From Onishia taeanensis (lineage in GTDB: Bacteria; Pseudomonadota; Gammaproteobacteria; Pseudomonadales; Halomonadaceae), in the NCBI RefSeq assembly GCF_003268885.1, contig NZ_QLSX01000016.1, positions 1 through 35,977 on the forward strand: a DNA stretch of 35,977 nucleotides, given 5' to 3'. The translations under genes were made by a program, and so were the position numbers. The notes under the pieces are model-generated. The model worked only from the letters and a program-made list of their open reading frames with translations. It searched no databases and was not told the DNA's origin. How positions within the stretch are numbered: position 1 is the stretch's first letter; the number at the start of each line of letters is the position of its first letter. Below, piece by piece: positions 1,793 to 33,630 of this stretch.

Positions 1793-1825
1793 ATCATGCC
1801 GGGGTAAACTGAATCTAGCCTGAGT
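1793..1825 (-). promoter_or_regulatory. CopR-type box and -10 of copA
   Basis: The plus strand reads CTGAAT at 1809-1814 and CTGAGT at 1820-1825, an 11-bp period. Reading leftward, 10 bp separates the box from a -10-like CATGAT (1793-1798), 35 bp before the copA start. The box overlaps the stop codon of copS. The same layout precedes copI and the gene at 7526. Assignment to CopR is inference. Confidence 0.6.
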
Positions 1826-3173
1826 CGCTGGAGGAATTTACGCGTGCTGTGGCGGTTGGCAGCACGATGGTGACGGCCAGGCCCCCCGCGACCGCCGCGG
1901 CGAAGGTCACGCGCCCCTCATACTGCTCGACCAGCTGCCGAAGGATCGAGAGCCCCAGGCCATGACCCGGGCGCCCTTCGTCGAGGCGGAGCCCGCGTCG
2001 GCCCAGTTGGGCGAGATCCGCCCTTGCCACGCCGGGACCGTCATCCTCGATGACCAGCGTCAGCGTCGTCGTCACGCTCAGGCGACAGTGAACGTCGCGC
2101 TGCGCCCATTTCCCGGCATTGTCGAGGACGATCCCCAGCATCTCGGTGAAGTCCTGGCGCTCGACGCTGACCGTGGCCCGACCATCCTGCAGTCCATCAA
2201 GGTGAAAGCGCTTGTCGGGGTGCAGGGTGGCGAACATCTCGATCAGTTGCTCGGCCTCCTTCCGGACGCGGGTGAGCTGGCCGGCATAGGGGCCGGCGAT
2301 GCGTGAACGACGCAGCTCCGCGTCAAGCTGAGCCTGCATGTCCTCCAGGCGGGTCAATAGCTTCAGGCGGCGATCGCCATCGATGGGGCGAGAGCCTCTT
2401 AGCACCTGCGTGACGGCCGCCAGGGGCGTCTTTAGTGCATGAGAGAGGTTGGCGACGGCGTCCCGCGAGCGCTTGAGTCGCTTGTCCTGCTCGTCCATGA
2501 AGCGGTTGAGCTGACCGACCAGGCCATCGAGTTCTGATGGCGTGTCCAACTGCAGGCGCTCGCGATACCCCGCACGCAGTTCATCGAGTTGCCGCTGAAG
2601 CCGAACCAGGGGTGACAGTCCTGCATTCACGGCGACCAGGTTGAGCGTAATCAGCAGGAGCAGTACCAGGCCCGCGATGCCACCGACCCACCAGTGCAGG
2701 GTGGCCAGGCCGGCTTCCACCTCGGCGAAGTCCTCGCCGATCAACAAGGTGCCGGCGGCGCCGTCTTCCAGGGTAAAGACCTCTCGATAGAGCAGCAGGT
2801 GGCGGCCCTGCCACTGCACCTCGAGCAGGGTATCGTCTTCGCCCTCCAGGTAGGGGGAAAGGTTGGTCAGCCAGCCGGGGTGGGAGGTGCTGACCGTGCC
2901 ATCCAGCCGCAGCACATAGAGATGATGAAACATCTGCGAGGTCAGGCTGGCGGAGTCCAGCCAGGGTTTCACCTGGGATTGTTCCTGACGCAACCGTTGC
3001 AGCGTGTAGTGCGCTTCCTGGCGCAGGCGATCGCCGAGGAAGTCGCGAGCTAGGTCGCGCAGCAGGATGCCATGCAGCAGCCAGGTGATGGCGACGGCGA
3101 TCAGGGCCACGCCACCCAGCCATAGGGATAGGCGAAAGCGCAGGCTACGACGATCAACGCGAAGCAAAGACAT
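1815..3173 (-). CDS. copS: Copper-responsive sensor histidine kinase
   Basis: Inner-membrane two-component sensor kinase, 452 residues. Membrane segments lie at about 16-36 and 162-184 around a 125-residue periplasmic sensor, followed by a linker/HAMP-like region. The H-box is NLSHALKTP with phospho-acceptor His245, the N-box DNAGKW at 351, the G1 box DDGPG at 377-381 and the G2 box GHGLGL at 403-408. The H-box and N-box resemble PhoQ-type kinases. I take the start at 3173, which overlaps the regulator gene by 20 bp (translational coupling); the frame stays open upstream but that lies inside copR. Copper as the signal is inferred from the flanking copI and copA. Confidence 0.92.
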   Translation of the reverse strand: MSLLRVDRRSLRFRLSLWLGGVALIAVAITWLLHGILLRDLARDFLGDRLRQEAHYTLQRLRQEQSQVKPWLDSASLTSQMFHHLYVLRLDGTVSTSHPGWLTNLSPYLEGEDDTLLEVQWQGRHLLLYREVFTLEDGAAGTLLIGEDFAEVEAGLATLHWWVGGIAGLVLLLLITLNLVAVNAGLSPLVRLQRQLDELRAGYRERLQLDTPSELDGLVGQLNRFMDEQDKRLKRSRDAVANLSHALKTPLAAVTQVLRGSRPIDGDRRLKLLTRLEDMQAQLDAELRRSRIAGPYAGQLTRVRKEAEQLIEMFATLHPDKRFHLDGLQDGRATVSVERQDFTEMLGIVLDNAGKWAQRDVHCRLSVTTTLTLVIEDDGPGVARADLAQLGRRGLRLDEGRPGHGLGLSILRQLVEQYEGRVTFAAAVAGGLAVTIVLPTATARVNSSSDSG

Positions 3174-3819
3174 AGCCCTGGCCGCGACGCGTCTGGATGA
3201 TGTGATTGCCAAGCCGGCGGCGCAGCCGGCCGATATAGACCTCGACCAGGTTCGGGGCGGGGGCATCCTGATCCAGGGTGTAGAGCTGGTCGAGCAGCCG
3301 CACCTTGGAGTGCACGTGATCCGGGTGATGCATCAGGTAGCGCAGTAGCCGAAATTCGGTGGCGGTCAGGGACTGCCAGGTCGCGCCATCGGTGCTGACT
3401 GCCTGGGTCTGCTCATCCAGTTGCACCCCATTGACGGTCAAGCACTGGGTCAGCCCCCCGGCCTGTCGCCTCAGTAGGGCATGCAATCGAGCCAGCAGCT
3501 CGGCCTCGTGAAAGGGCTTGGTCATGTAATCGTCGGCTCCTCGCCGCAACCCCACGACCTTGTCTTCCCAGGTGTCTCGTGCGGTCAGTGCCAGGATGGG
3601 CAAACGATGGCCCTGCTCCCGCCAGCGTTGCAGCAGCTCCAGGCCAGAACCGTCGGGAAGGCCGATATCGAGGATGGCGAGGGAATAGGCTTCCGTGGCC
3701 ATCAACGCGTCGGCCACACGCATGCGTGTGGCCGTATCGACGCTGTAGCCCTCGTCCTGCAAGGTCTCCGCCAGGCTCTCGGCCAGTAGGTCATCGTCCT
3801 CGACTAGCAACAGCTTCAT
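3154..3819 (-). CDS. copR: OmpR-family response regulator
   Basis: Cytoplasmic transcription factor of 221 residues: receiver domain (about 1-115) with acidic pocket D8/D9, phospho-acceptor Asp51, Thr79 and Lys101, then a winged-helix DNA-binding domain (about 125-221) ending in the typical RGQGYVFA motif. It resembles the QseB/PmrA branch, whose members bind direct repeats with an 11-bp period. That matches the CTGAAW-N5-CTGAAW boxes found before several copper genes here. It begins 4 bp after copI and overlaps copS, so the three are one transcription unit. The copper role is inferred from context. Confidence 0.93.
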   Translation of the reverse strand: MKLLLVEDDDLLAESLAETLQDEGYSVDTATRMRVADALMATEAYSLAILDIGLPDGSGLELLQRWREQGHRLPILALTARDTWEDKVVGLRRGADDYMTKPFHEAELLARLHALLRRQAGGLTQCLTVNGVQLDEQTQAVSTDGATWQSLTATEFRLLRYLMHHPDHVHSKVRLLDQLYTLDQDAPAPNLVEVYIGRLRRRLGNHIIQTRRGQGYVFASR

Positions 3820-3823
3820 GCGT

Positions 3824-4294
3824 TCATCCCTGGAAGTGGATCTCTCCGTTCATGCCTGACTCGTAGTGGCCGGGAATGTTGCAGGCGAATTCTAGCGTAT
3901 CGGTGTCCTGCGGGGCGGTCCATACCAGGGTCGCGGTCTCACCCGGGGCGATGGTCACGGAGGGCATGCCGCCGCCGTGCCCGCCGTCACCATGTCCACC
4001 GGACATGTTGTGGCCGCCGCTCGATGCCATCTCGCGCATCATTTCGCGGTGTTGCTCCTGAGCGGCGGCGTTGCCGATCACGAACTCGTGCTTGAGGTTG
4101 CCGGTGTTGGTGATCTCGAACTTTACCGTCTTGCCTGGCTCGATATCGAGCTTGCCAGGGGTGAACCACATGTCACCGGCCTCGAAGCTGATGGTGCGGT
4201 CCACCTGAGCGTGATTCTCACTGCCATGTTCGCCGCTGGCCAGGACCGCGGTAGAGGCGAGGCCCAGGGTCATTGCTAGGATTGTCTTGCGCAT
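3824..4294 (-). CDS. copI: Periplasmic cupredoxin, CopI type
   Basis: Secreted small blue-copper protein of 156 residues, with a signal peptide of about 20 residues. Type-1 copper ligands can be placed: His69 in KHEFVIG, then Cys138, His143 and Met148 in the motif FACNIPGHYESGM. A Gly/His/Met-rich loop (about 92-110) may bind more copper. Such proteins are linked to copper tolerance beside copA and copRS. It is the first gene of the copI-copR-copS unit and has a CopR-type box with a good TATAAA -10 upstream. A decayed copy of its 5' half lies at 7996-8208. Confidence 0.9.
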   Translation of the reverse strand: MRKTILAMTLGLASTAVLASGEHGSENHAQVDRTISFEAGDMWFTPGKLDIEPGKTVKFEITNTGNLKHEFVIGNAAAQEQHREMMREMASSGGHNMSGGHGDGGHGGGMPSVTIAPGETATLVWTAPQDTDTLEFACNIPGHYESGMNGEIHFQG

Positions 4295-4328
4295 ATGGAT
4301 AGCTCCATTGGGTCAATCGGCAGGTCCG

Positions 4329-4361
4329 TTTATAAGTCATCAAGCTGAATTTGGGCTGAAT
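4329..4361 (-). promoter_or_regulatory. CopR-type box and promoter of copI-copRS
   Basis: CTGAAT-TTGGG-CTGAAT on the plus strand at 4345-4361, 11-bp period. Leftward, 10 bp lies between the box and TATAAA (4329-4334), 35 bp before the copI start. The box takes the place of a -35 element, typical of OmpR-family activated promoters. This is the best of the five sites. Confidence 0.7.
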
Positions 4362-4493
4362 GCCGAAAGGGGCTTAGCAAGGAAACAGTGAGCATCCGAC
4401 CTCATCTTCCAAGCGGCGAGGCACCTTCTCATCACAGGGTCGTCAGGGACTAGAGCGAGGTCACTCCGGTCCCTGGACGGAGGATGCCGGACG

Positions 4494-4527
4494 CCCGCCG
4501 GCTGTCTCTCGATAGGAGTCCGGCGGG
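4494..4527 (-). terminator. Hairpin downstream of the DUF411 gene
   Basis: Inverted repeat CCCGCCGG (4494-4501) / CCGGCGGG (4520-4527) with an 18-base loop, 17 bp past the stop of the gene at 4545. No T-run follows, so it is a weak terminator candidate. I see no gene in 4295-4544. Confidence 0.3.
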
Positions 4528-4544
4528 GCATCAGGCGGGTCTCG

Positions 4545-4985
4545 CTAAAGCGTCATGAAGGGTGCGTCCTGGTGATCTTGGAACTGGTAGACCTCATAAG
4601 GCTCCGTCTGTGGCCCCGGCATGCCTGGCGTGCCACTCGGCATGCCGGCCAGTCCGATGCCATTGGCATCGGGCTGTTGTTCGAAGAGCGCTTCTACTGC
4701 TGCCAGGGGGACATGCCCCTCGATCACATAGTCGCCCATGATGATGGTGTGGCAGGCACCCATTCCGAAGGGGACGCCCGCCGCCTTCTTGACCGCGCTT
4801 AAGTCCTTGTCATCGACGATGGTGACGTCGATACCCGTTCGTTCCAGGTGGCGGGCATAACCATCGCAGCAGCCGCACTGGGGATTCTTGTAGAGAGTGG
4901 CCTCGTCCGGCAGGGCGGCATGGGCGGTGGTGGCGCCCAGCAGCAGGCCGGTCGCCAGCAGTAGGTGAGGCATGGTGAGTTTCAT
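4545..4985 (-). CDS. DUF411 periplasmic metal-binding protein
   Basis: Secreted protein of 146 residues with a signal peptide ending near AHA (about 22 residues), then the DUF411 core: thioredoxin-like opening TLYKNPQCGCCDGYARHLE with a CGCC cysteine cluster, GACHT with another Cys/His pair, and YVIEGHVP. The family is widespread in copper-resistance loci, but its biochemistry is not established to my knowledge. The start at 4985 is chosen because AAGGGAG lies 7 bp upstream and the signal peptide begins there, although the frame is open to 5093. A same-length paralogue is at 9561-10001. It follows the cytochrome c gene by 104 bp and may be co-transcribed. Confidence 0.88.
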   Translation of the reverse strand: MKLTMPHLLLATGLLLGATTAHAALPDEATLYKNPQCGCCDGYARHLERTGIDVTIVDDKDLSAVKKAAGVPFGMGACHTIIMGDYVIEGHVPLAAVEALFEQQPDANGIGLAGMPSGTPGMPGPQTEPYEVYQFQDHQDAPFMTL

Positions 4986-5089
4986 GAGCGATCTCCCTTG
5001 TCGGAGGTAAACAGATATTTGATGAGGGTGGCAATGCCGAAACCTAGGCACAGTCGACCTGGCAGGCGGGGAGGAGGAACCAGAGGGCC

Positions 5090-5884
5090 TCAATGCGTGT
5101 GGCCGTCCGCATAGTGGTCGTTAGTGGATTGTGGCGAGGACGAGGCATCCTGGCGCGAGTCGGCCAGCTGGAGTTTTGCTGCGGGTTCTGCGTCTGCCGA
5201 GGCGGAGCCTGAGGAAGCCGACTTGTGCTCGCTCATGGCGGTCATGTCACCATGCTCATGGTCGTGGCCGTCATCTGCCGGCTCGTGAGAGTCGTTTGCT
5301 GAGCGAGCCATAGCGCTGGTGTCACCATGGTCGTGGTCGTGGCCATCATGCTTCGCTTGATCGGCCATTGGGCTGTCAGGACGGACCAGGTCCTGGTAAT
5401 CCTGCGGCGAGAGTTCGGGCAACCGCTGCAGGAAGGCCACGATCTCCCATAACTCCTGGTCGTCGTGGGTCACGCCCCAGGCTGGCATGCCAGTCATCTT
5501 GATGCCGTTCTTGATGACCCAAAACTGCTGCGCAGGATCTTGATGAGTGGAATCCGAGAATGTCGGTGGCATGGGATTGAGACCGGCACGAAGTACCGTG
5601 CTCTCGAGGCTGGGCTTGAGGTGGCAGGCCGCACAGAGGCCATCATAGGCTTTGGCCCCGGCTTGAACCATGCTGTCACTGCTTAGGTCGGGAGCTTCTA
5701 TCTCTTCGGCCCCGGCCTCTACCGAGGCGTGCATGGTAGAATGCAGGACTGACTTGACAAGCGGAAGGTGCTCGTCCGTTGCTGCGACGTTGTACATTCC
5801 GCTATGCATGACCGCCATTCCTCCGACGGCAAGGAGGAGTAGGGTAATGATTCCACCTAACGCAAGTTTGAACATCTTTAACAT
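5090..5884 (-). CDS. Cytochrome c with a His/Asp-rich C-terminal tail
   Basis: Single-haem c-type cytochrome, 264 residues. An N-terminal membrane anchor or signal lies at about 8-26; the haem site CAACH is at 84-88 and a likely axial Met is in KMTGMPAW (130-136). Residues after about 175 form an unusual tail with two repeats of the type DGHDHxHGD plus Ser/Ala-rich sequence ending DGHTH, probably a metal-binding tail. It may pass electrons from a metal-handling periplasmic protein, but no partner is proven. Start could be 5884 or 5875 (ATG-N6-ATG); spacing from AGGA favours neither strongly. It sits with DUF411 in a metal cluster. Confidence 0.87.
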   Translation of the reverse strand: MLKMFKLALGGIITLLLLAVGGMAVMHSGMYNVAATDEHLPLVKSVLHSTMHASVEAGAEEIEAPDLSSDSMVQAGAKAYDGLCAACHLKPSLESTVLRAGLNPMPPTFSDSTHQDPAQQFWVIKNGIKMTGMPAWGVTHDDQELWEIVAFLQRLPELSPQDYQDLVRPDSPMADQAKHDGHDHDHGDTSAMARSANDSHEPADDGHDHEHGDMTAMSEHKSASSGSASADAEPAAKLQLADSRQDASSSPQSTNDHYADGHTH

Positions 5885-6117
5885 AGTCCTATATATGGGT
5901 ATCGGGTCTGGAATGGTTGTCTCCCGGCTTTTTGAGCGCCCGGGCCGATCTCCTACCAGCCTTTCATTGCATCTACAGGTGGCTGGAGGTGAAACGCTTG
6001 TTGCAAAGTAGGCTTTTTCGGCGACGTTGCTTACCGTCTCATCCTACAGGCCCCGCAGGTCGACCGCCGTATCCATTCGTCAGTGTTTGTCAACGGTCAT
6101 GGGAGGCTTGCCTACTC
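5885..6117. other. Intergenic, no gene seen
   Basis: I see no convincing gene, CopR-type box or terminator in these 233 bp between the cytochrome c gene and the ATPase relic. Confidence 0.5.
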
Positions 6118-6615
6118 TCATGGTTTAATCTTCGGTTCGTGTAAACGCAGGGCATTGCCCACCACGGAGAACGAGCTGAATGACATTGTCACGGAGGCAA
6201 TGGTCGGAGACATCAGCAGGCCGACGGCGGGGTAGAGCACCTCGGCGGCGATGGGTACGCCCAGGCTGTTGTAGCCGAAGGCAAGATCTGATTCTGCTTG
6301 ATATTGCGCATGGAGGCGCGTCTAAGGCGGCGAGCGAGAACGATGCCCTTCAGGTCGCCCTTGACCAGGGTGACGCCGGCGCTCGCCATGGCCACGTCGG
6401 TGCCGGTGCCCATGGCGACGAAGCGCCCCTCGGCCTGCAGTGCCTTGACCTGCTCCGGCAGCACCCCGGCGATGATCTCGTCGATTCCCAGCTCCTTCGC
6501 TACGGCCTGGGCCGTGGTCTGGCTGTCACCGGTTAGCATGACGATGCGGATGCCTTCCTCATCAGGGCGTGGATAGCTTCGGCTGTAGTGTTCTTGATCG
6601 GGTCGGCGCCAGTGT
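6118..6615 (-). pseudogene. Relic of a copper P-type ATPase (C-terminal half)
   Basis: Read leftward this gives [15 protein letters not shown], a frameshift, [38 protein letters not shown], then directly [18 protein letters not shown] and MRNIKQN. A second frameshift is followed by the final membrane segments [26 protein letters not shown] and a C-terminal VVGNALRL. These are hallmarks of P1B-1 (CopA/CopB-type) copper ATPases. Between AM and GTGTD the invariant GDGxNDAPAL block is deleted. At least two frameshifts and the loss of everything upstream of the hinge make it non-functional. It belongs with the other broken copper genes between 6118 and 8208. Confidence 0.88.
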
Positions 6616-6770
6616 CGAGGCTTCTTCGTGACAATGGTTGTCTCGGCGTGACGTCATGTCAGTAACTCTATTGCTGACCGGCTTGCTATAGATCGTTTGC
6701 CTTATCGAGCAGGCGGCGACTTGGGGCCGAAGAAAGATTGTGATCAATAACTACTCTTCTGGCTTGAATG

Positions 6771-6793
6771 CCTTAGTGTTACCCCAAGGTCAA
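6771..6793 (-). promoter_or_regulatory. CueR-like operator/-35 upstream of the ATPase relic
   Basis: Leftward, TTGACC (6788-6793) overlaps the dyad CCTT-N11-AAGG (6771-6789), the same half-sites and spacing as copper MerR-family (CueR) operators at copA ATPase promoters. It lies about 155 bp before the ATPase relic, pointing into it. The -10 is poor. Probably a leftover of the original ATPase promoter. The rest of 6616-7112 has no convincing gene. Confidence 0.45.
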
Positions 6794-6876
6794 GCCGTGG
6801 CCGTTAAAGGTCATATTTTAGCAATAGAGGGTTTGATTTTGTGCGTGCACTTTCCCCGTGTTTCATGAAAGTGGTT

Positions 6877-6909
6877 AGTATGGGCGACTTTTCTGAATCT
6901 AGGCTGAAT
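6877..6909 (-). promoter_or_regulatory. Orphan CopR-type box with -10
   Basis: CTGAAT-CTAGG-CTGAAT on the plus strand at 6893-6909, with CATACT (6877-6882) 10 bp to the left, the same geometry as at copI and copA. No intact gene follows leftward; a short ATG frame at 6865 lacks a ribosome site. Either the gene was lost or the transcript is untranslated. Confidence 0.55.
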
Positions 6910-7112
6910 AGGCAAGTGAGGTCGCGGTGTGTCGAGCAGTGAGGGGGTGACCTTTCTCCCCAAGATCTGGTCTGGTGCTATTTTGGTAGCAGCCAAAGTG
7001 TGCTATCAGGGGTGGGGTGTGTCTCTTCAACGCAGCTAGCGTTGAAGAGACATCCGGCAATGACTAGGCCAGCAACGATCGGCCTAGTCGGTGACGAACT
7101 AATTGGCTAGTT

Positions 7113-7526
7113 TTATTCGAAGTCCAAGTGCAGGTTATAGCGCTTGGAAACTTCATCAGGGCTTCCCATCGCATTCCCTTCCACTTCCAGAATATAGGTT
7201 CCGGGCGCTACTCGTTTGGTAATCAGGAAGTGACCTCGTTGATCTGAGTCCTTGGAGACGAGGCGCCCTTCTTCGTCGTATAGACTTCCCTGGATATTGA
7301 CGCTAGCACTAGAGTCGCTGGCCAGGTGCTCGCTACTGAGCTGTACGATGCTCTCATCGATTACTTGAATTCTATAGCGTTTGGGGTTGGAAGATATGAT
7401 CTGGCTATCACTCTCTCCCTCGTTCAACATCAATAGCTCTGACGTCTGATTACCGGTGACGGCAAAGGTCGTCATTGAAAATAGACCTAGCATGGTAGCA
7501 CCGAGAATAGTGGCATAACGTTTCAT
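7113..7526 (-). CDS. Secreted protein of unknown function under a CopR-type box
   Basis: A 137-residue protein with a clear signal peptide (MKRYATILG to about TFA, 22 residues). The mature part is predicted mostly beta: RYRIQVIDES, NIQGSLYDEEGRL, and APGTYILEVEGN followed by a short acidic end. The layout (variable polar strands, a GTYILEV strand) resembles pre-peptidase C-terminal (PPC)-like or jelly-roll domains, but I cannot assign it firmly. No cysteines or obvious metal-ligand clusters. Start 7526 is fixed by a strong AAGGAGGTC upstream. It is the only intact gene among copper relics and has a CopR-type box 48 bp before its start, so it is probably copper-induced. Confidence 0.82.
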   Translation of the reverse strand: MKRYATILGATMLGLFSMTTFAVTGNQTSELLMLNEGESDSQIISSNPKRYRIQVIDESIVQLSSEHLASDSSASVNIQGSLYDEEGRLVSKDSDQRGHFLITKRVAPGTYILEVEGNAMGSPDEVSKRYNLHLDFE

Positions 7527-7557
7527 GATTGACCTCCTTGGCTGTTTGGCAAGAACT

Positions 7558-7590
7558 AGCATGGAGGGGAAAGCTGAAACGGCACTGAAA
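7558..7590 (-). promoter_or_regulatory. CopR-type box and promoter of the secreted protein gene
   Basis: CTGAAA-CGGCA-CTGAAA on the plus strand at 7574-7590; leftward 10 bp then CATGCT (7558-7563) as -10, 31 bp before the start at 7526. Geometry identical to the copI promoter. Confidence 0.6.
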
Positions 7591-7632
7591 ATACACAAAA
7601 TTGATTTGATATGACCTAGCCGTCATTTTTAT

Positions 7633-7872
7633 CTAGCCATACCATGCCATGCAGAGTGTCGAGTGAAGGCTGGAGTATAGGGCATCCTCGACCTTGTCGG
7701 GGGTAGCATATTTCAAGCGATCGAAGAGTATCGAGCCCTGTGAGTGCTCGGCCCTCGGCGATGGCCAGTTCGCCGGGGCATCGTAGCCATCGCTGGCCTG
7801 AGCGCCAGCGGCCACCAGCATGGCGAGGGTAGAACCGGTACCGATAACGACAGTCTTGGACTTCATGAACAT
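7633..7872 (-). pseudogene. copB: 5' remnant of copB (outer-membrane copper protein)
   Basis: Starts with a signal peptide (KTVVIGTGSTLAMLVAAGAQA) and continues YDAPANWPSPRAEHSQGSILFDRLKYATPDKVEDAL, which resembles CopB N-termini where 'AEHS.GSL..DRLEY...GEDAL' precedes the beta-barrel. After EDAL the frame is corrupted (YSSLHSTLC) before an AWYG-like fragment and a stop; the barrel of over 200 residues is missing. It sits 3 bp after the stop of the copA 3' fragment, the normal copA-copB order. The identification is from memory of the family and fairly confident. Confidence 0.72.
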
Positions 7873-7875
7873 CCC

Positions 7876-8141
7876 TTACGCGACTTTGACGACCCGGAAC
7901 ATGCCGGCATCCATGTGATAGAGCAGGTGACAGTGGAAGGCCCAGCTGCCCTCGGCATCGGCGGTGATCAGGGCAGATACCCGTTCGCCGGGCTTGAACC
8001 ACATGTCACCGGTCTCGAAGCTGATGGTGCGGTCCACCTGGGCCGTGGCCTGACTACTCTGGTCACTACCACCTTTAGTGCCGCCGGCCACGCTGCGGTG
8101 GCCGACTAGCCGAGTGCGATCGCCAGTAATGTCTTGCGTAT
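7876..8141 (-). pseudogene. Chimeric copI::copA fragment (cupredoxin start joined to oxidase end)
   Basis: Leftward, the segment from 8141 to about 7996 resembles the start of copI (IRKTLLAIALG, then AQVDRTISFETGDMWF). From 7997 to 7903 it is identical to window positions 1-95, the copA 3' end, and finishes HCHLLYHMDAGMFRVVKVA. The join is in frame at a KPG motif found in CopA and similar in CopI (TPG). The copI-derived signal peptide is destroyed: ATG has become ATA, an in-frame TAG follows and the frame shifts. An internal GTG at 8091 leaves a 71-codon frame, but without a signal peptide it would stay cytoplasmic. Probably not functional. Confidence 0.85.
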
Positions 8142-8191
8142 GTGGATACCTCCGTTGGCGTCAGTGGAAGGGTCCATTTCTTCGCATCAAC

Positions 8192-8208
8192 CTGAAACGA
8201 AGCTGAAA
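8192..8208 (-). promoter_or_regulatory. Decayed copI-type promoter with CopR-type box
   Basis: CTGAAA-CGAAG-CTGAAA with the 11-bp period. The flanking bases align with the copI promoter (GTTGATG..., TGGACC), but the -10 is AGAAAT where copI has TATAAA. The box belongs to the chimeric fragment and is probably inactive leftward. Confidence 0.55.
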
Positions 8209-8346: not shown

Positions 8347-8862
8347 ATGATCAACTATAAGCAAGTAATCGCCATTGCGCTGGCCTCTGGTCTGGGCATC
8401 GCCACCAGCGGTGCCGCTTCTGCTCACGGGATGCATCAAGGCACCCAGGGAGCTGGCGGCATGATGATGGGCGGCGGCCAAGCTGGCATGGGCCCCGGCA
8501 TGATGATGGGCGGTGGCCAAGGTGGCATGATGCCCTGTCCCCTGATGGGCGGTATGGGAGCCATGGGCGGCGCGGCAGCAATGCTCGACGACGAGCAGCT
8601 GAGCACCCTGCGCGAAATGCGCAAGGCACATCGTTCCGCCTACTTTGAGCGGATGGGTGAGATGATGAACCTGCGCGAGGAGATGCTGCTGCTTATGCAG
8701 GCTGATCGTCCGGATTCAGAGGAGGTAAAGACACTCCATGGTCAGATGGCTGATCTGCACGGCGAGATGATGGCAGACGAGGTACGCATGCGTAACCAGA
8801 TGCAGGACCTGCTGACAGACGAGCAGCGAGAGCGGATGCGGCGGGGCAACGCAGCGCAGTAA
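8347..8862 (+). CDS. Met-rich Spy/CpxP-like periplasmic protein
   Basis: Periplasmic protein of 171 residues. The signal peptide ends near ASA (about 25 residues). A Met/Gly-rich stretch follows with repeats of the form GGMMMGGGQ(A/G)GM and PCPLMGGMGAMGG. Then comes a helical domain with LDDEQLSTLREMRKAHR and, near the end, LTDEQRERMRR, the LTxxQ signature of the Spy/CpxP/ZraP family of metal-responsive chaperones. The Met-rich part likely binds Cu(I). ATAGGAGA lies 6 bp before ATG 8347; the frame is open further upstream but lacks a ribosome site there. It stands alone, with a hairpin after it. Confidence 0.88.
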   Translation: MINYKQVIAIALASGLGIATSGAASAHGMHQGTQGAGGMMMGGGQAGMGPGMMMGGGQGGMMPCPLMGGMGAMGGAAAMLDDEQLSTLREMRKAHRSAYFERMGEMMNLREEMLLLMQADRPDSEEVKTLHGQMADLHGEMMADEVRMRNQMQDLLTDEQRERMRRGNAAQ

Positions 8863-9038: not shown

Positions 9039-9350
9039 ATGAGGAAGCTTGCTAGCGCTGTTGTTAGCTGTGCTGCTGTTGGTGTCCAGCCTGGCGGCCC
9101 AGACGGCCATGCCGACGGCTGCGACGTGGCCCAGGTCAAGGTGCTCAATAACGCCGATCCCGAGTGTGGCGTCTGTGCGGCCATTTCGACAGTAACCCTC
9201 GTCATTACCTACTATCAGAATACCCTGGCCGGCATCGGCATCGGCATCGGCATCGGCATCGGCATCGGCATCGGCATCGGCATCGGCATCGGCATCCAGG
9301 CCGCGGTCGAATTCATCGCCCCGTCCCCGCTCAAACCTCCAAGATCCTGA
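9039..9350 (+). pseudogene. Decayed small gene or noncoding segment carrying a (GGCATC)11 tract
   Basis: One frame starts MRKLASAVV and later reads DVAQVKVLNNADPECGVCAA before a Gly-Ile run. In the next frame the same DNA near the start reads LLALLLAVLLLVSSLAAQTA, a convincing signal-peptide core. This suggests a small secreted protein whose signal and body are now in different frames. I do not recognise the family. The repeat below interrupts the 3' part. Confidence 0.35.
9231..9296 (+). repeat. Hexanucleotide tandem repeat (GGCATC)11
   Basis: Eleven perfect copies of GGCATC. In the three forward frames it encodes Gly-Ile, Ala-Ser or His-Arg dipeptide runs. A hexamer repeat keeps frame when it expands, so it would alter length, not reading frame. 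Confidence 0.97.
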
Positions 9351-28879: not shown

Positions 28880-29338
28880 TTATCCCAAATCGTGAGCGCC
28901 TTTGTGGGCTGCCTCACTGATACACAACTGGTGATCACTCAGCACCTCGATGATGCGACAGCTCTCGACCTTGCTGCCGGCGCACTGGCTCACCATCCGC
29001 TTGAGCTCGTCACGCAGTGCCGAGAGCCGCTGCAGCCGCGACTCCACTTCCTCCAGGTGATGCTTGGCAACGGCATCGACCTCCTGACAGGGCATGTCGG
29101 GCTGGTCGGACATCGCCAGTAGCTCACGCACCGCATCCACCGAGAAGCCAAAGTCTCGGGCATGGCGAATGAAGGTCAGCCGCCTGACAGCTTCTTCGCC
29201 ATAGCGCCGCTGCCCACCCTCGGTACGCGATGCATCGCCCATCAGCCCGATGCGCTCATAATAGCGCACCGTTTCAGGCTTGCAGCCGGCGCGCCGTGCC
29301 AGCTCGCCGATACCGATGGCATGGCTAATCTCCGGCAT
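28880..29338 (-). CDS. MerR-family Zn/Cd/Pb regulator
   Basis: 152 residues. Winged-helix start GIGELARRAGCKPETVRYYERIGLM, GGQRRYGEEAVRRLTFIRHARDFGFS, a dimer helix, and metal-binding cysteines at 84, 119, 127 and 139. The 84-119-127 spacing (35 and 8) resembles CadR/PbrR (35 and 9) and ZntR. It is divergent from the ATPase gene across a MerR-type operator, so it is the likely activator. Start 29338 follows GAGGAGC; the frame is open further upstream but without a ribosome site. Confidence 0.92.
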   Translation of the reverse strand: MPEISHAIGIGELARRAGCKPETVRYYERIGLMGDASRTEGGQRRYGEEAVRRLTFIRHARDFGFSVDAVRELLAMSDQPDMPCQEVDAVAKHHLEEVESRLQRLSALRDELKRMVSQCAGSKVESCRIIEVLSDHQLCISEAAHKGAHDLG

Positions 29339-29360
29339 CCTGATGCTCCTCTCGCATGAC

Positions 29361-29391
29361 TTGAACCTGTAGTTGCTACAGGGATTATGCT
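29361..29391 (+). promoter_or_regulatory. MerR operator/promoter of the ATPase operon
   Basis: TTGAAC (29361-29366), exact 19-bp spacer, TATGCT (29386-29391). The perfect dyad CCTGTAG-TTG-CTACAGG (29366-29382) fills the spacer. This is the standard geometry for MerR-family activation and lies in the gap between the divergent genes. Confidence 0.85.
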
Positions 29392-29427
29392 TCAAAATAA
29401 GATTAAGACATTCGGAGAAGCAACGCC

Positions 29428-31623
29428 ATGACCGAACCAACGCAAAGCACTATCTCGTCGACGCTGACACTGCAGGTGGAAGGCATGGACTGCGGCGGCT
29501 GCGAGCGCAAGGTAGAGGCCGCTCTGGGCCGCCTGGAGGGCATCGGGGAGGTGTCGGCCAGTTCGGTCACCGGATCGGTGAGGATTCACCCTCAACAGGA
29601 TACGACGCCTTCTCATGAGGCGATCGAGCGGATCCTTAACGAGCTCGGCTACCAGCTTGCCACCGATGATGAGGGAGATGAGGCGGATGCCGCTCCGGCC
29701 TCTTGGTGGCAGACCGCCAAGGGACGCTTGGTGCTCGTCACGGGGGGGCTGCTGGCTCTGGCCTTCGTTCTCCGCCTGGTCTGGCCTAGCCTAGGCAACT
29801 GGCCCTTCGTTGCGGCCACCCTGGTGGGGTTGGTGCCCATTGCACAAGGCGCCTGGGGTGCGCTGAAGATGCGCAACCCCTTCACCATCGAGATGCTGAT
29901 GAGCATCGCCGCCTTGGGGGCCCTGGCCATCAATGCCGCCGCCGAAGCGGCAGTGGTGGTCTTCCTGTTCGCCGTAGGCGAGTTGCTGGAGGGGGTGGCC
30001 GCGTCGAGGGCGCGACGCAGCATCTCGGCCCTGGCGGACCTGACGCCGTCCACGGCGAGGCTGATGGAGGATGGGGATACCCGTGAGGTTTCGGCCGCCT
30101 CGCTCACGCCTGGGCAGCGAGTCCTGGTGCGACCGGGCGACCGCGTGCCCTGCGATGGACGTATTCTGACCGGCGAATCCGACCTGGATGAGTCACCGAT
30201 CAACGGGGAGTCGGTGCCCCGCACGCGGGCGCCGGGGGACGACGTCTTTGCCGGCACGGTCAACCTCGATGCCGCCCTGGAGGTGGAGGTAACCCGCGGC
30301 GCCGAGGACAACACCATCGCACGGGTCATCCGCCTGGTGGAGGAGGCCCAGGCCGCCAAGGCGCCGGTGGCACGTTTCATCGACCGCTTCGCTCGCTACT
30401 ACATGCCGGCGGTGGTGGGGCTCGCCCTGCTGATGGCGGTGGTGCCGCCGCTGGTCTCGACCATGGCCTGGTCGGAATCGATCTATCGCGCCCTGGCCCT
30501 GCTGTTGATCGCCTGTCCCTGTGCTCTGGTGATCTCAACCCCCGCGGCGATCGCTGCCGGCCTCTCGGCGGGCGCCCGGCGGGGCCTGCTGATCAAGGGC
30601 GGCGCGGTGCTCGAACAGCTGGGTAAGCTGCGGACGGTGGCGCTGGACAAGACCGGCACCCTCACCGCCGGCACCCCCAAGGTCACCGACGTGGAGGACT
30701 GGGCCACTGGCCAAGGCACGCAAGAGATCCTGAGGCTGGCGGCTGGGATGGAACGTGACTCCAGCCACCCCATAGCCACGGCCATCCTCGCCCACGCTGA
30801 GCAGTTGGGCCTTTCCCTTCCACTGGCGAGTGAGAGCCGCGCCCTGTCGGGCCGAGGGGTCGCCGGTCGGGTCGAGGGGCGTGAGTTGAGCCTGATCACC
30901 CCCCGCCACCTGGCAGAGCAGGCCGCTCTCGATCACGACCTGAGCGCTCGGATCGCCGAGCTGGAGGGGGCCGGCAAGAGTCTCGCCGTGCTGGTCGAAG
31001 GCGAGCATCCGCTGGGCCTGATCGCCGTGCGCGATGAGCCGCGTGACGATGCCCGGGAGGGGCTGACGGCGCTGTCGCGCCTGGGCGTGCAGGCAGTGAT
31101 GCTCAGCGGTGACAATGCGCGTACCGCCGCGGCCATCGGTGACAGCCTGGGCATCGAGGCACATGGCGAGCTGATGCCCGAGGACAAGGCCCAGCGCGTT
31201 CGTGACTGGCAGGCCGCCGGCCGAGGCCCCGTCGGCAAGGTGGGCGACGGCATCAACGATGCGCCGGCGCTGGCCGCGGCAGAAGTGGGCATCGCCATGG
31301 GCGGCGGCACGGATGTGGCACTGGAAACCGCGGATGCGGCGCTGCTCAAGAACCGCGTCGGCGGCATCGCCGAGCTGATCGCCCTGTCCCGAGCCACGCT
31401 GCGCAACGTCAAGACCAACGTCGCCCTGGCGCTGGGCCTGAAGGCCATTTTCCTGGTGACCACGGCGCTGGGCATCACCGGCATGTGGATCGCGGTGATG
31501 GCGGATACCGGCGCCACCGTGCTGGTGACCCTGAACGCCATGCGGTTGCTGGGTTATCGCTTCTCGCCAGGCAATGCCACGACTGGCTCGGCAAGCCCGC
31601 GCTACCAGGCAGCCACGTCATGA
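29428..31623 (+). CDS. zntA: Zn/Cd/Pb-exporting P1B-ATPase (ZntA/CadA/PbrA type)
   Basis: 731 residues, inner-membrane ATPase. One N-terminal heavy-metal domain with GMDCGGC (Cys22/Cys25); actuator loop DESPINGES (254-262, Asn where most have Thr in TGES); CPC at 363-365 in helix 6; phosphorylation site DKTGT with Asp407; HP locus SSHPIA (His447); GDGINDAP (606-613); and Asp693 in MADTGATVLVTLNAMRLL, the helix-8 residue that sets Zn/Cd/Pb specificity in ZntA. It is activated from the MerR promoter and overlaps lspA by 4 bp. PbrA is an equally fitting name. Confidence 0.95.
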   Translation: MTEPTQSTISSTLTLQVEGMDCGGCERKVEAALGRLEGIGEVSASSVTGSVRIHPQQDTTPSHEAIERILNELGYQLATDDEGDEADAAPASWWQTAKGRLVLVTGGLLALAFVLRLVWPSLGNWPFVAATLVGLVPIAQGAWGALKMRNPFTIEMLMSIAALGALAINAAAEAAVVVFLFAVGELLEGVAASRARRSISALADLTPSTARLMEDGDTREVSAASLTPGQRVLVRPGDRVPCDGRILTGESDLDESPINGESVPRTRAPGDDVFAGTVNLDAALEVEVTRGAEDNTIARVIRLVEEAQAAKAPVARFIDRFARYYMPAVVGLALLMAVVPPLVSTMAWSESIYRALALLLIACPCALVISTPAAIAAGLSAGARRGLLIKGGAVLEQLGKLRTVALDKTGTLTAGTPKVTDVEDWATGQGTQEILRLAAGMERDSSHPIATAILAHAEQLGLSLPLASESRALSGRGVAGRVEGRELSLITPRHLAEQAALDHDLSARIAELEGAGKSLAVLVEGEHPLGLIAVRDEPRDDAREGLTALSRLGVQAVMLSGDNARTAAAIGDSLGIEAHGELMPEDKAQRVRDWQAAGRGPVGKVGDGINDAPALAAAEVGIAMGGGTDVALETADAALLKNRVGGIAELIALSRATLRNVKTNVALALGLKAIFLVTTALGITGMWIAVMADTGATVLVTLNAMRLLGYRFSPGNATTGSASPRYQAATS

Positions 31624-32123
31624 GAACGAAACGGATAGAGATGGCGCCGCAGAGCCGCTACTGGTTGGCACTGGCCGTTATGGTCGGCCTGGCCGACCAG
31701 GTCATCAAGGGGCTGGTGCAGGCGCTGATGCCGTATGGCCAGACCATCCCGCTGACCCCATTCTTCAACTGGGGTCACTGGTGGAACACGGGGGCGGCCT
31801 TAAGCTTCCTCGCCGATTCAGGTGGCTGGCAGCGCTACCTCTTCCTGTGCTTTGCAGGGTTGGCGACTATCGTGCTGACGTTCCTGTTGTGCAGGCCCAG
31901 GCCCCGCCTGGAGGCGCTGGGGTACAGCTTGATGCTGGGTGGCGCGCTGGGTAATGGCATCGACCGCCTGGTGCGAGGGTATGTGGTGGACTACCTGGAC
32001 ATCTACTGGCGAGAGTGGCACTGGCCCGCCTTCAACCTGGCGGATATCGCCCTGTTCCTGGGTGTCATCGCCTTTGCGATTGCGGCCTTGCGTGAGCGTC
32101 CCTCCCCCAGATTGTCTGAGTGA
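31620..32123 (+). CDS. lspA: Lipoprotein signal peptidase II
   Basis: 167 residues, inner-membrane aspartic peptidase that removes prolipoprotein signal peptides. Four helices; WWNTGAALSFL (family: RNTGAAFS), then the catalytic Asp pair in GNGIDRLVRGYVVDYLDIYW and FNLADIALF. ATG 31620 overlaps the ATPase stop (ATGA). In Pb resistance operons the PbrC protein is such a peptidase, which fits its place after a PbrA-type ATPase. Confidence 0.93.
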   Translation: MRTKRIEMAPQSRYWLALAVMVGLADQVIKGLVQALMPYGQTIPLTPFFNWGHWWNTGAALSFLADSGGWQRYLFLCFAGLATIVLTFLLCRPRPRLEALGYSLMLGGALGNGIDRLVRGYVVDYLDIYWREWHWPAFNLADIALFLGVIAFAIAALRERPSPRLSE

Positions 32124-32127
32124 CGGC

Positions 32128-33630
32128 ATGGATGCACAGAACCAGCCAGTCCGGGACATGACGCCTGTCGGACGGCTCTCTCCGGTCCTCGGCTGTTTGC
32201 TGGCCCTGACCGCCGGGGGGCTGACCACCCTCAGCGCCGCGCCCTTCACGCTGTGGTGGCTGGGCCCTGTGGCGGTGGCCCTGGTCTATGTCGGCATCCA
32301 TGCCCTGACACCCGCTCAAGCCGCCCTCCGTGGCTGGTGCTATGGCGTGGGCCTGTTCGGCTCCGGTGCCTCCTGGGTCTTCGTCGCAATCCACGGCTAT
32401 GGGGATACGGGGGCGCTCCTGGCGCTCTTCCTCACCGGTCTGTTCGTGGCCAGCCTGGCGCTGTTCTATACCGTGCCCTTCTGGCTCTATCGCCGCGTCA
32501 CGGGCCGACGCCTGGCCTTCCTCAGCTTCGCCGGCACCTGGGTTCTCAGCGAGTGGCTGCGCACCTGGCTGTTTACCGGGTTTCCCTGGCTGCTGCTGGG
32601 CACGTCCCAAGTGGACTCGCCGCTGGCGGCCTGGGCCCCGGTGGGCGGCGTCTATCTTCTGTCGCTGATCACCGCCCTGACCGGCACCCTGGGCGTGGAG
32701 CTGCTGCGCCGACGCTGGTGGGCCCTTGCCCCTATCGCCGCCCTGTGGCTGGCCCCGTTAGCCTTGCCGGGTCAGTGGACCAGCCCGGCCGGCGAGCCGC
32801 TCAGCGTGGCGCTGTTGCAAGGCAACCTCGACCAGAGCATCAAGTGGAGTGCCCAAGGCCAGCGCGAGGCGGTCAACATCTACACGGCGTTGACCGGGGA
32901 GCAGCCCGACGGCATCGACCTGATGGTCTGGCCCGAGGTGGCGCTGCCAATGTTCGAGGAGGAGGCGCGGCCCATACTGGAGCGGGTGCAGTCCAACCTC
33001 GCCCCCGACACCGCCCTGCTCACCGGCATCCTGCAGCGCGACGGCGGCGACTACTACAATAGCGTGATCGGCCTGGGTAACGCCGAGGGCCACTACCGCA
33101 AGGCGCGTCTGGTACCCTTCGGCGAGTACCTGCCGCTGGAGAGCCTGCTCGCCGGCACCATCGCCTTCTTCGACCTGCCCATGCCGACCATGACGCCCGG
33201 GCCCGAAGCTCAGGGGCCGATCCACGCCGCCGGAACCACCATCGGTAACGCCATCTGCTACGAGATCATCTATGCCGACCGGGTCGCCGAGCAGGCGCGC
33301 GCTGCCGAGCTACTGCTGACGGTCTCCAACGACACCTGGTTCGGCCGCTCCATCGGCCCCCTGCAGCATTTGCAGATGGCCCGTCTGCGTGCGCTGGAGA
33401 ACGGCCGATACCTGATTCGCGCCACCAGCAACGGGATGACTGCCATCGTCGATCCTCAGGGCAGTGTCACAGCCCGCGCACCACAGTTCCAGGCGACGAG
33501 CCTTCGCGGCGAGGTGCGGCCCATGGTGGGAAACACGCCGTTCACCCGAACCGGTAGCTGGCCAATCTGGCTATTGGCCGCCTTACTGGTGCTGCATGGA
33601 TGGCGACTTAACACACGTCGGTCTGGATGA
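32128..33630 (+). CDS. lnt: Apolipoprotein N-acyltransferase
   Basis: 500 residues. Several N-terminal membrane helices (to about 215), then a nitrilase-like periplasmic domain with the catalytic triad Glu270 (WPEVALP), Lys325 (YRKARLVPFGEYLP) and Cys377 (NAICYEIIY), and a C-terminal helix. It adds the third acyl chain to lipoproteins. The start at 32128, 4 bp after lspA, gives the usual family length; the frame is open far upstream inside lspA. A second copy of lnt is unusual on an accessory island and implies that lipoprotein maturation is boosted along with metal export. Confidence 0.93.
   Translation: MDAQNQPVRDMTPVGRLSPVLGCLLALTAGGLTTLSAAPFTLWWLGPVAVALVYVGIHALTPAQAALRGWCYGVGLFGSGASWVFVAIHGYGDTGALLALFLTGLFVASLALFYTVPFWLYRRVTGRRLAFLSFAGTWVLSEWLRTWLFTGFPWLLLGTSQVDSPLAAWAPVGGVYLLSLITALTGTLGVELLRRRWWALAPIAALWLAPLALPGQWTSPAGEPLSVALLQGNLDQSIKWSAQGQREAVNIYTALTGEQPDGIDLMVWPEVALPMFEEEARPILERVQSNLAPDTALLTGILQRDGGDYYNSVIGLGNAEGHYRKARLVPFGEYLPLESLLAGTIAFFDLPMPTMTPGPEAQGPIHAAGTTIGNAICYEIIYADRVAEQARAAELLLTVSNDTWFGRSIGPLQHLQMARLRALENGRYLIRATSNGMTAIVDPQGSVTARAPQFQATSLRGEVRPMVGNTPFTRTGSWPIWLLAALLVLHGWRLNTRRSG

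Follow-up and report, generated by a model that had tools for sequence, protein, structure and literature searches.

A direct repeat, WTTCAG-N5-WTTCAG, that recurs in front of copper-resistance genes of Onishia taeanensis is very probably the operator of the OmpR-family response regulator encoded among them (3154–3819, minus strand), and would define a copper-induced regulon. The DNA analyzed, referred to here as the window, is the whole 35,977-nucleotide stretch of contig NZ_QLSX01000016.1, position 1 being its first letter. What computation established is the motif with its spacing and strand, its conservation, the genes downstream of it, and the fact that it co-occurs with the regulator gene.

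With less assurance, we also consider it fairly probable that the system represents a separate copper two-component lineage, built on a regulator of the PmrA branch and distinct from CopR/CusR, that acts as a main copper switch of the family, is carried by plasmids as well, and has an operator that exposes undescribed copper-response genes. An ortholog of the regulator is present in half of the 120 family relatives searched. The predicted operator lets regulons be read from sequence in many relatives and places several unstudied proteins in the copper response on comparative evidence; if correct, it exposes the protein encoded at 7113–7526, a small protein rich in Met and two further families lacking a Pfam match. 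The operator/promoter architecture is conserved and ordinary in mechanism, and apparently undescribed for this branch of regulators: no description of this operator was found among the listed titles and abstract starts of open-access papers, which is weak evidence of absence.

The Box and Its Promoter Setting

On the plus strand the box reads CTGAAW-N5-CTGAAW, with exact copies at 4345–4361, 6893–6909, 7574–7590 and 8192–8208 and a copy with one mismatch at 1809–1825 (ACTCAG-N5-ATTCAG on the minus, or gene, strand). The first-pass annotation, made from the letters of the window, had proposed five copies in a single orientation, with 10 bp between the box and a -10-like hexamer in the four well-kept cases; this observation is confirmed. 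All five boxes and their hexamers lie on the minus strand. Box 1 (1809–1825), which extends into the final codons of the gene for the sensor kinase, and the hexamer CATGAT (1793–1798) form the copA promoter; an exact copy of this box lies at equal distance, +1994 from the regulator start, in genome G003. Box 2 (4345–4361) and TATAAA (4329–4334) belong to the promoter of the cupredoxin-regulator-kinase operon, box 3 (6893–6909) and CATACT (6877–6882) lie upstream of a P-type ATPase remnant, and box 4 (7574–7590) and CATGCT (7558–7563) form the promoter of the unstudied gene at 7113–7526. At box 5 (8192–8208), a decayed duplicate of the cupredoxin promoter, the hexamer is lost (8176–8181 reads AGAAAT) and the start-codon place reads ATA.

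Exact boxes were absent from 100 shuffled versions of the window (mean 0, largest 0). Taken by itself with up to two mismatches, the box is weak evidence: it is found 10 times in the window against 5.89 expected, a count reached by seven of 100 shuffles. When the box was combined with the 10-bp distance and a hexamer YANNNT, allowing up to two mismatches, five matches were obtained against 0.19 expected and a maximum of one in 100 shuffles.

Beyond the box and its hexamer, the sequences flanking the sites share 24–31% ungapped identity, near the chance level of 25%; only those of 4345 and 8192 are related (42%, copies of one promoter), and the sites therefore count as four independent ones. 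These comparisons bear on the idea that the repeats are merely promoter duplicates spread with a copper island, and not a selected motif. Such duplication has occurred, since the 8192 site duplicates the 4345 promoter and a third copy exists on contig C7, but as a general explanation it is highly improbable given the unrelated flanks of the other sites and the profile seen in relatives, where bases upstream of the box carry only 0.01–0.17 bits each and the information is concentrated in the box, the hexamer and some of the bases in between. For the fixed half-site letters this follows from the construction of the scan. T is favoured at the third spacer position (0.78 bits) and at the second and third positions after the box (0.79 and 1.26 bits).

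The position expected for a -35 element, 17 bp from the hexamer, reads AGGCTA, AGCCCA, AGCCTA and AGTGCC in the four sites, and no -35 consensus was found there. A regulator that represses through a box overlapping the promoter core, with copper relieving the repression, would suit the position of the box over the -35 place, and activation and repression are inseparable from sequence alone; this arrangement is nonetheless quite unlikely, as a -35 consensus is missing at that place and the box keeps an exact 10-bp phase to the -10 hexamer, as expected if the regulator replaces the -35 element in the manner of PhoB- and PmrA-type proteins.

The 8192 site is a relic, the promoter of a decayed cupredoxin copy, and the 6893 site now precedes what is recognizable only as a P-type ATPase fragment. 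Assignment of the 8192 box to the plus-strand gene 8347–8862 was dismissed on account of its wrong orientation. Beside the decayed cupredoxin copy, positions 7903–7997 repeat positions 1–95 (inside copA) letter for letter, and the segment 7903–8143 is by all appearances made up of relics of a duplicated copper cluster.

Conservation and Co-Occurrence With the Regulator

The strict pattern, TTCAG-N5-WTTCAG-N10-YANNNT, was scanned in 196 genomes, the host genome included, and was present in 71 of them with 170 sites (table sum), against three sites for the reversed control. Orthologs of the regulator were defined by at least 62% identity and an expectation value (E) of 2.4e-85 or better, and are separated by a clean gap from the next regulators (at most 53% identity, E of 8.1e-68 or worse). 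Within a sample of 120 relatives of the same family, the box with its hexamer at 10 bp occurs in 51 of the 60 that have the ortholog and in six of the 60 that lack it (Fisher p = 1.8e-17). Because relatives are not independent, the regulator labels were also permuted within genera; none of 20,000 permutations (mean 36.5, largest 45) reached the observed 51. In genome G127, which lies outside the family and was left out of these counts, one nearly identical box-bearing sequence accounts for 12 of 15 matches, four times at about 217 bases from a contig start; it is probably a mobile or repeated element and no regulon.

Further evidence comes from 70 regulator loci (69 orthologs and the window's own) of up to 12.7 kb each, shorter at contig ends, and 846 kb in total, which were picked by protein and not by motif. 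The relaxed box, TTCAG-N6-TTCAG, is held by 64 of the 70 loci, in 63 of them on the regulator's strand; 138 sites lie on that strand against five on the opposite one, and the reversed letters yield none. A half-site spacing of six, equivalent to an 11-bp period, accounts for the 138 sites, whereas any other spacing between 0 and 15 gives 0–4. Among the 109 distinct sites on the regulator's strand, YANNNW starts at offset 10 in 83, never at offsets 9 or 11, and at most 26 times at any other offset from 0 to 29 (26 at offset 29, 19 at offset 12). A re-test of the spacing on extra island loci was uninformative, these having been selected by the strict pattern (eight other sites, three with YANNNW at 10 bp). 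By place, 43 of the sites lie right before copA, 35 ahead of the cupredoxin operon at some 550 bp upstream of the regulator, nine right before the regulator gene itself, in as many loci, and 51 elsewhere. Together these data support the earlier proposal that the box is a shared operator of the adjacent regulator.

A number of observations weigh against this assignment. The -10 hexamers are of middling quality (CATGAT, CATGCT), and 26 of the 109 distinct sites lack YANNNW at offset 10. The strict pattern is missing from nine regulator-positive genomes and present in six regulator-negative ones, and since the genomes are related, the 51 of 60 are not independent events, which the within-genus permutation corrects only in part. 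Six of the 70 loci have no exact box: one (G099) has nothing recognizable, and the other five have a degenerate box at the usual place, of which only that of L208 exceeds the 99th percentile of the null while staying below its maximum, the top of this null possibly including real boxes on the other strand. Finally, the box may not be private to the regulator at 3154–3819, as it is also carried by genomes G028 and G030, whose regulators are 43% and 53% identical; the operator is perhaps shared within the branch.

This last point leads to the reading under which the box is recognized mainly by another PmrA/QseB-type regulator, or by several, the adjacent regulator being one reader among them. 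In G028 a box, 10 bp from TATAAT, precedes genes that include the different, 43% identical response regulator (L284:4639–5697); G030 and G056 have boxes but no close ortholog; and three regulators in the host genome, the window's own included, reach E of 1e-40. Among ten outlying loci, those of G030, G162 and G139 (regulators 50–53% identical) have boxes close to the regulator, in G030 beside it, and that of G157 has none. We regard this reading as improbable, though less so than the duplication and repression scenarios, in view of the 51 versus six co-occurrence, the boxes placed immediately before the ortholog in nine loci, and the six same-family loci ranking next below the orthologs and G030 (L219–L224), in which no box was found.

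Copies Elsewhere in the Host Genome

The 3.74 Mb genome (30 contigs) has seven exact boxes, four of them in the window, and the reversed-pattern control has none. The first-pass annotation had named as a refutation a motif no rarer at random intergenic positions, which is not the case: relaxed copies number 11 against two in the control; four lie in the window, three others have a 10-bp promoter setting, and the remaining four compare with the two of the control. Of those three, the box at C15:32912 lies about 150 bp before a gene for a YHS-domain protein (10 bp to TACGCT), that at C15:15086 about 270 bp before the gene for an unstudied 115-residue protein (10 bp to CAGGCT), and that at C7:43813 ahead of the third copy of the cupredoxin gene, which is apparently frameshifted (L280; 10 bp to TACATA). 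In G002 and G005 the YHS site and the regulator share a contig, at a distance of about 23 and 28 kb.

The other copies were set aside. The exact boxes at C1:342405 and C2:212405 are each found at the 3' end of a gene, into which they point in antisense direction, and have no YANNNT at 10 bp; the relaxed copy on C19 is inside an open reading frame (ORF) and has no hexamer, and that on C12 has TACAGC at 10 bp and no convincing gene close by.

Genes Downstream of the Box

The genes following the box were collected from 199 distinct sites. These come from the 70 loci with an ortholog, the ten outlying ones and 21 additional stretches; as almost all of the additional stretches were picked for the strict pattern, the sample is not unbiased. 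The first ORF is copA-like in 48 cases, cupredoxin-like in 39 and the regulator in 12, followed by the family of 7113–7526 (nine), a 126-residue family without Pfam match (seven), prolipoprotein diacylglyceryl transferase (six), a Met-rich protein and a DUF411-like protein (five each), an unstudied 119-residue family, CopC-like, NuoA-like, YHS and OEP proteins (four each) and ATPase-like proteins (three). The remaining clusters are smaller, often with a single member, and surely include chance ORFs; eight sites have no ORF after them. The names copA, cupredoxin, regulator, DUF411 and ATPase were given by similarity to the window genes and by position; Pfam matches are above the cut-off for Lgt, NuoA-like, YHS and OEP, and just below it for CopC, on a 70-residue piece. 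The NuoA-like protein (NADH-quinone oxidoreductase chain 3 domain), which follows a box in four genomes (L261, L270 and two more), is unexpected in a copper regulon. The lgt gene follows a box in six genomes (L198 and others) and on the THAF12 plasmid (L287:11253–12074).

Relatives of the protein encoded at 7113–7526 occur in 42 of the 196 genomes (E 1e-5). An exact box lies within about 120 bp of the homolog in nine of 28 loci (the window's own, G074, G008, G081, G079, G048, G103, G011 and G069), in seven more the box is complete but for the final G of its second half-site, and for the other 12 neither form lies within 400 bp or the locus was not resolved. That the box is kept before homologs whose identity to the window's protein can fall to 29% speaks for regulation. 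No invariant His, Met or Cys was found among the aligned family proteins, and neither a PDB profile search nor a Pfam scan of 18 members gave anything convincing; beta-sandwich and Ig-like families are among the commonest of the weak Pfam matches (best E 0.0044). A single-sequence structure model contains strands only, at low confidence (mean predicted local distance difference test score, pLDDT, 50.7).

The cluster was initially described as a local copper regulon that includes a gene of unassigned function. Boxes before copA, the cupredoxin operon and 7113–7526 agree with this description, except that the predicted regulon reaches beyond the locus.

Plasmid-Borne Copies

A protein scan for named relatives yielded 80 loci of 35–45% identity, too low for orthologs, and these were left aside. 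Of six plasmid matches, four were inspected. Plasmid-borne regulators are 66.5–71% identical to that of the window in Halomonas and 68.6% in Vreelandella. Plasmids of Halomonas sp. KO116, HAL1 and THAF12 carry a cupredoxin-regulator-kinase-copA-copB cluster with boxes, which before the cupredoxin gene lie 10 bp from TATAAA (KO116, HAL1) or TATAAC (THAF12), and before copA are followed by CAAGAT (KO116, HAL1) or CATGAT (THAF12). KO116 and HAL1 have an additional box before CopC (TATAAC and TTTAAC, respectively).

A plasmid of Hydrocarboniclastica marina, a member of another order, encodes a regulator of 52% identity, and between this gene and that of the cupredoxin it has boxes facing both ways, one toward the cupredoxin, 10 bp from CATCTT, and one toward the regulator, 10 bp from a non-fitting ACAATG. 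Judging by this plasmid, the operator may reach beyond the family. The same plasmid (L288) has three more boxes, which makes five relaxed boxes in 13.6 kb.

Other Features of the Window

All genes of the copper cluster described here are on the minus strand. The multicopper oxidase gene copA (1–1758) is cut by the window edge, and its product scores 775.7 bits with TIGR01480 (cut-off 478.95). It is preceded by the genes of the sensor histidine kinase (1815–3173), assigned by profile and Pfam scans and histidine conservation, and of the response regulator (3154–3819), the presumed box binder, which has PF00072 and PF00486 domains and is nearest to PmrA by NCBIfam ranking and structure matches. 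The cupredoxin (3824–4294) is above the cut-off of PF00127 and is CopI-like, although it stays below the CopI cut-offs (108.7 versus 280 bits for NF051440, 95.5 versus 200 bits for NF047895). Next come, by Pfam scan, a DUF411 protein (4545–4985), which has no box of its own here, and a cytochrome c with a cbb3-type domain (5090–5884), whose homolog in G004 has a box in front. The copper-type P-type ATPase remnant (6213–6539) gives partial matches to NF007952 and TIGR01525. The last gene (7113–7526) encodes a small protein of unassigned function with a signal-like N-terminus by eye, a recurrent member of the predicted regulon.

Outside this cluster, eleven tandem GGCATC six-base units are found at 9231–9296, inside the ORF 9039–9350. 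At 28880–31623 two divergent genes, both assigned by eye, encode a MerR-like regulator and a heavy-metal P-type ATPase, and lspA- and lnt-like genes come after them; the segment has the look of a second operon for metal resistance close to the copper cluster. The lspA- and lnt-like genes, again by eye, extend over 31485–33630, beside the metal genes.

Proposed Mechanism

Activation from the -35 place, close to the -10 element, is known for PhoB and PmrA-type regulators, and PhoB stands in for the -35 element itself. We infer that the regulator binds the box in phosphorylated form, with copper as the signal, and that it activates rather than represses. The kinase (1815–3173) would sense periplasmic copper through its conserved histidines and phosphorylate the regulator, which would bind the 11-bp direct repeat in the -35 place as a head-to-tail dimer. 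The 10-bp distance to the -10 hexamer would allow the regulator to contact RNA polymerase and sigma factor, and we propose that transcription could therefore start at promoters devoid of a -35 consensus. Local targets would be copA, the protein 7113–7526, at one time also an ATPase, and the cupredoxin-regulator-kinase operon, which would thus be autoregulated; elsewhere in the genome they would include at least the YHS protein, another unstudied gene and the damaged cupredoxin copy.

Comparison With Known Systems

The regulator belongs to the OmpR/PhoB family, with 88.2 bits for PF00072 (cut-off 30.2) and 65.8 bits for PF00486 (cut-off 26.2), and its placement in the PmrA/QseB branch, as first suggested, is supported. 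Its best NCBIfam model is PmrA (NF007928; 203.2 bits, below the equivalog cut-off of 330), and its best whole-protein matches among solved structures are PmrA/BasR (8jo2, 4s04, 4s05), headed by BasR (PmrA) entries 8jo2 and 4s04. The half-site recognized by PmrA-type regulators is TTAAG-like, one base away from the TTCAG of the window, and is arranged in 11-bp direct repeats; the box has the same layout of two head-to-tail half-sites with an 11-bp period. The recognition segment reads NLVEVYIGRLRRR in the regulator and NTLEVHIHNLREK in PmrA/BasR, and the predicted targets, unlike those of PmrA/BasR, are copper genes.

In gene content the cluster resembles the CopR/CusR/PcoR systems, having a multicopper oxidase, a cupredoxin and a paired kinase. 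Nevertheless, the label "CopR-type" given in the first-pass annotation is misleading: the regulator scores 144.7 bits with the CopR/CusR/SilR model TIGR01387 (cut-off 279.2). Known CopR/CusR operators are inverted repeats, TGACA-N4-TGTCA (PMC12428095), whereas the operator described here is a direct repeat, WTTCAG-N5-WTTCAG. The inverted repeat was not found in the window, even with one mismatch, and the 846 kb of the 70 loci contain four exact copies (reversed, none) versus 143 direct-repeat boxes. Annotation as CopR/CusR followed by a search for TGACA-N4-TGTCA would miss the regulon.

Other regulators of the family offer partial parallels. The Pho box of PhoB consists of two 11-bp direct repeats (PMC3978041), a layout shared by the box of the window, which differs in half-site, signal and regulon. 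AgrR of Cupriavidus metallidurans is likewise an OmpR-family metal regulator (PMC7380067); it groups with CzcR and CopR, and its core box is an inverted repeat of ATTACA (6-4-6), as opposed to the direct repeat of the window.

The kinase scores 84.1 bits with the CopS/CusS model TIGR01386 (cut-off 292.55). Its residues His34, His83, His84 and His160, located after the first membrane segment, as a pair in mid-domain and before the second segment (segments by eye), are conserved in 64 of the 66 distinct rows of an alignment drawn from 68 of the 70 loci. In Pseudomonas aeruginosa, CopS has been modelled to bind copper by His41 and His140 at the dimer interface (PMC7763554). The kinase of the window resembles CopS/CusS in having a conserved histidine just after the first membrane segment and another near the end of the sensor domain, a correspondence by position only, and differs from them by the additional conserved pair His83-His84.

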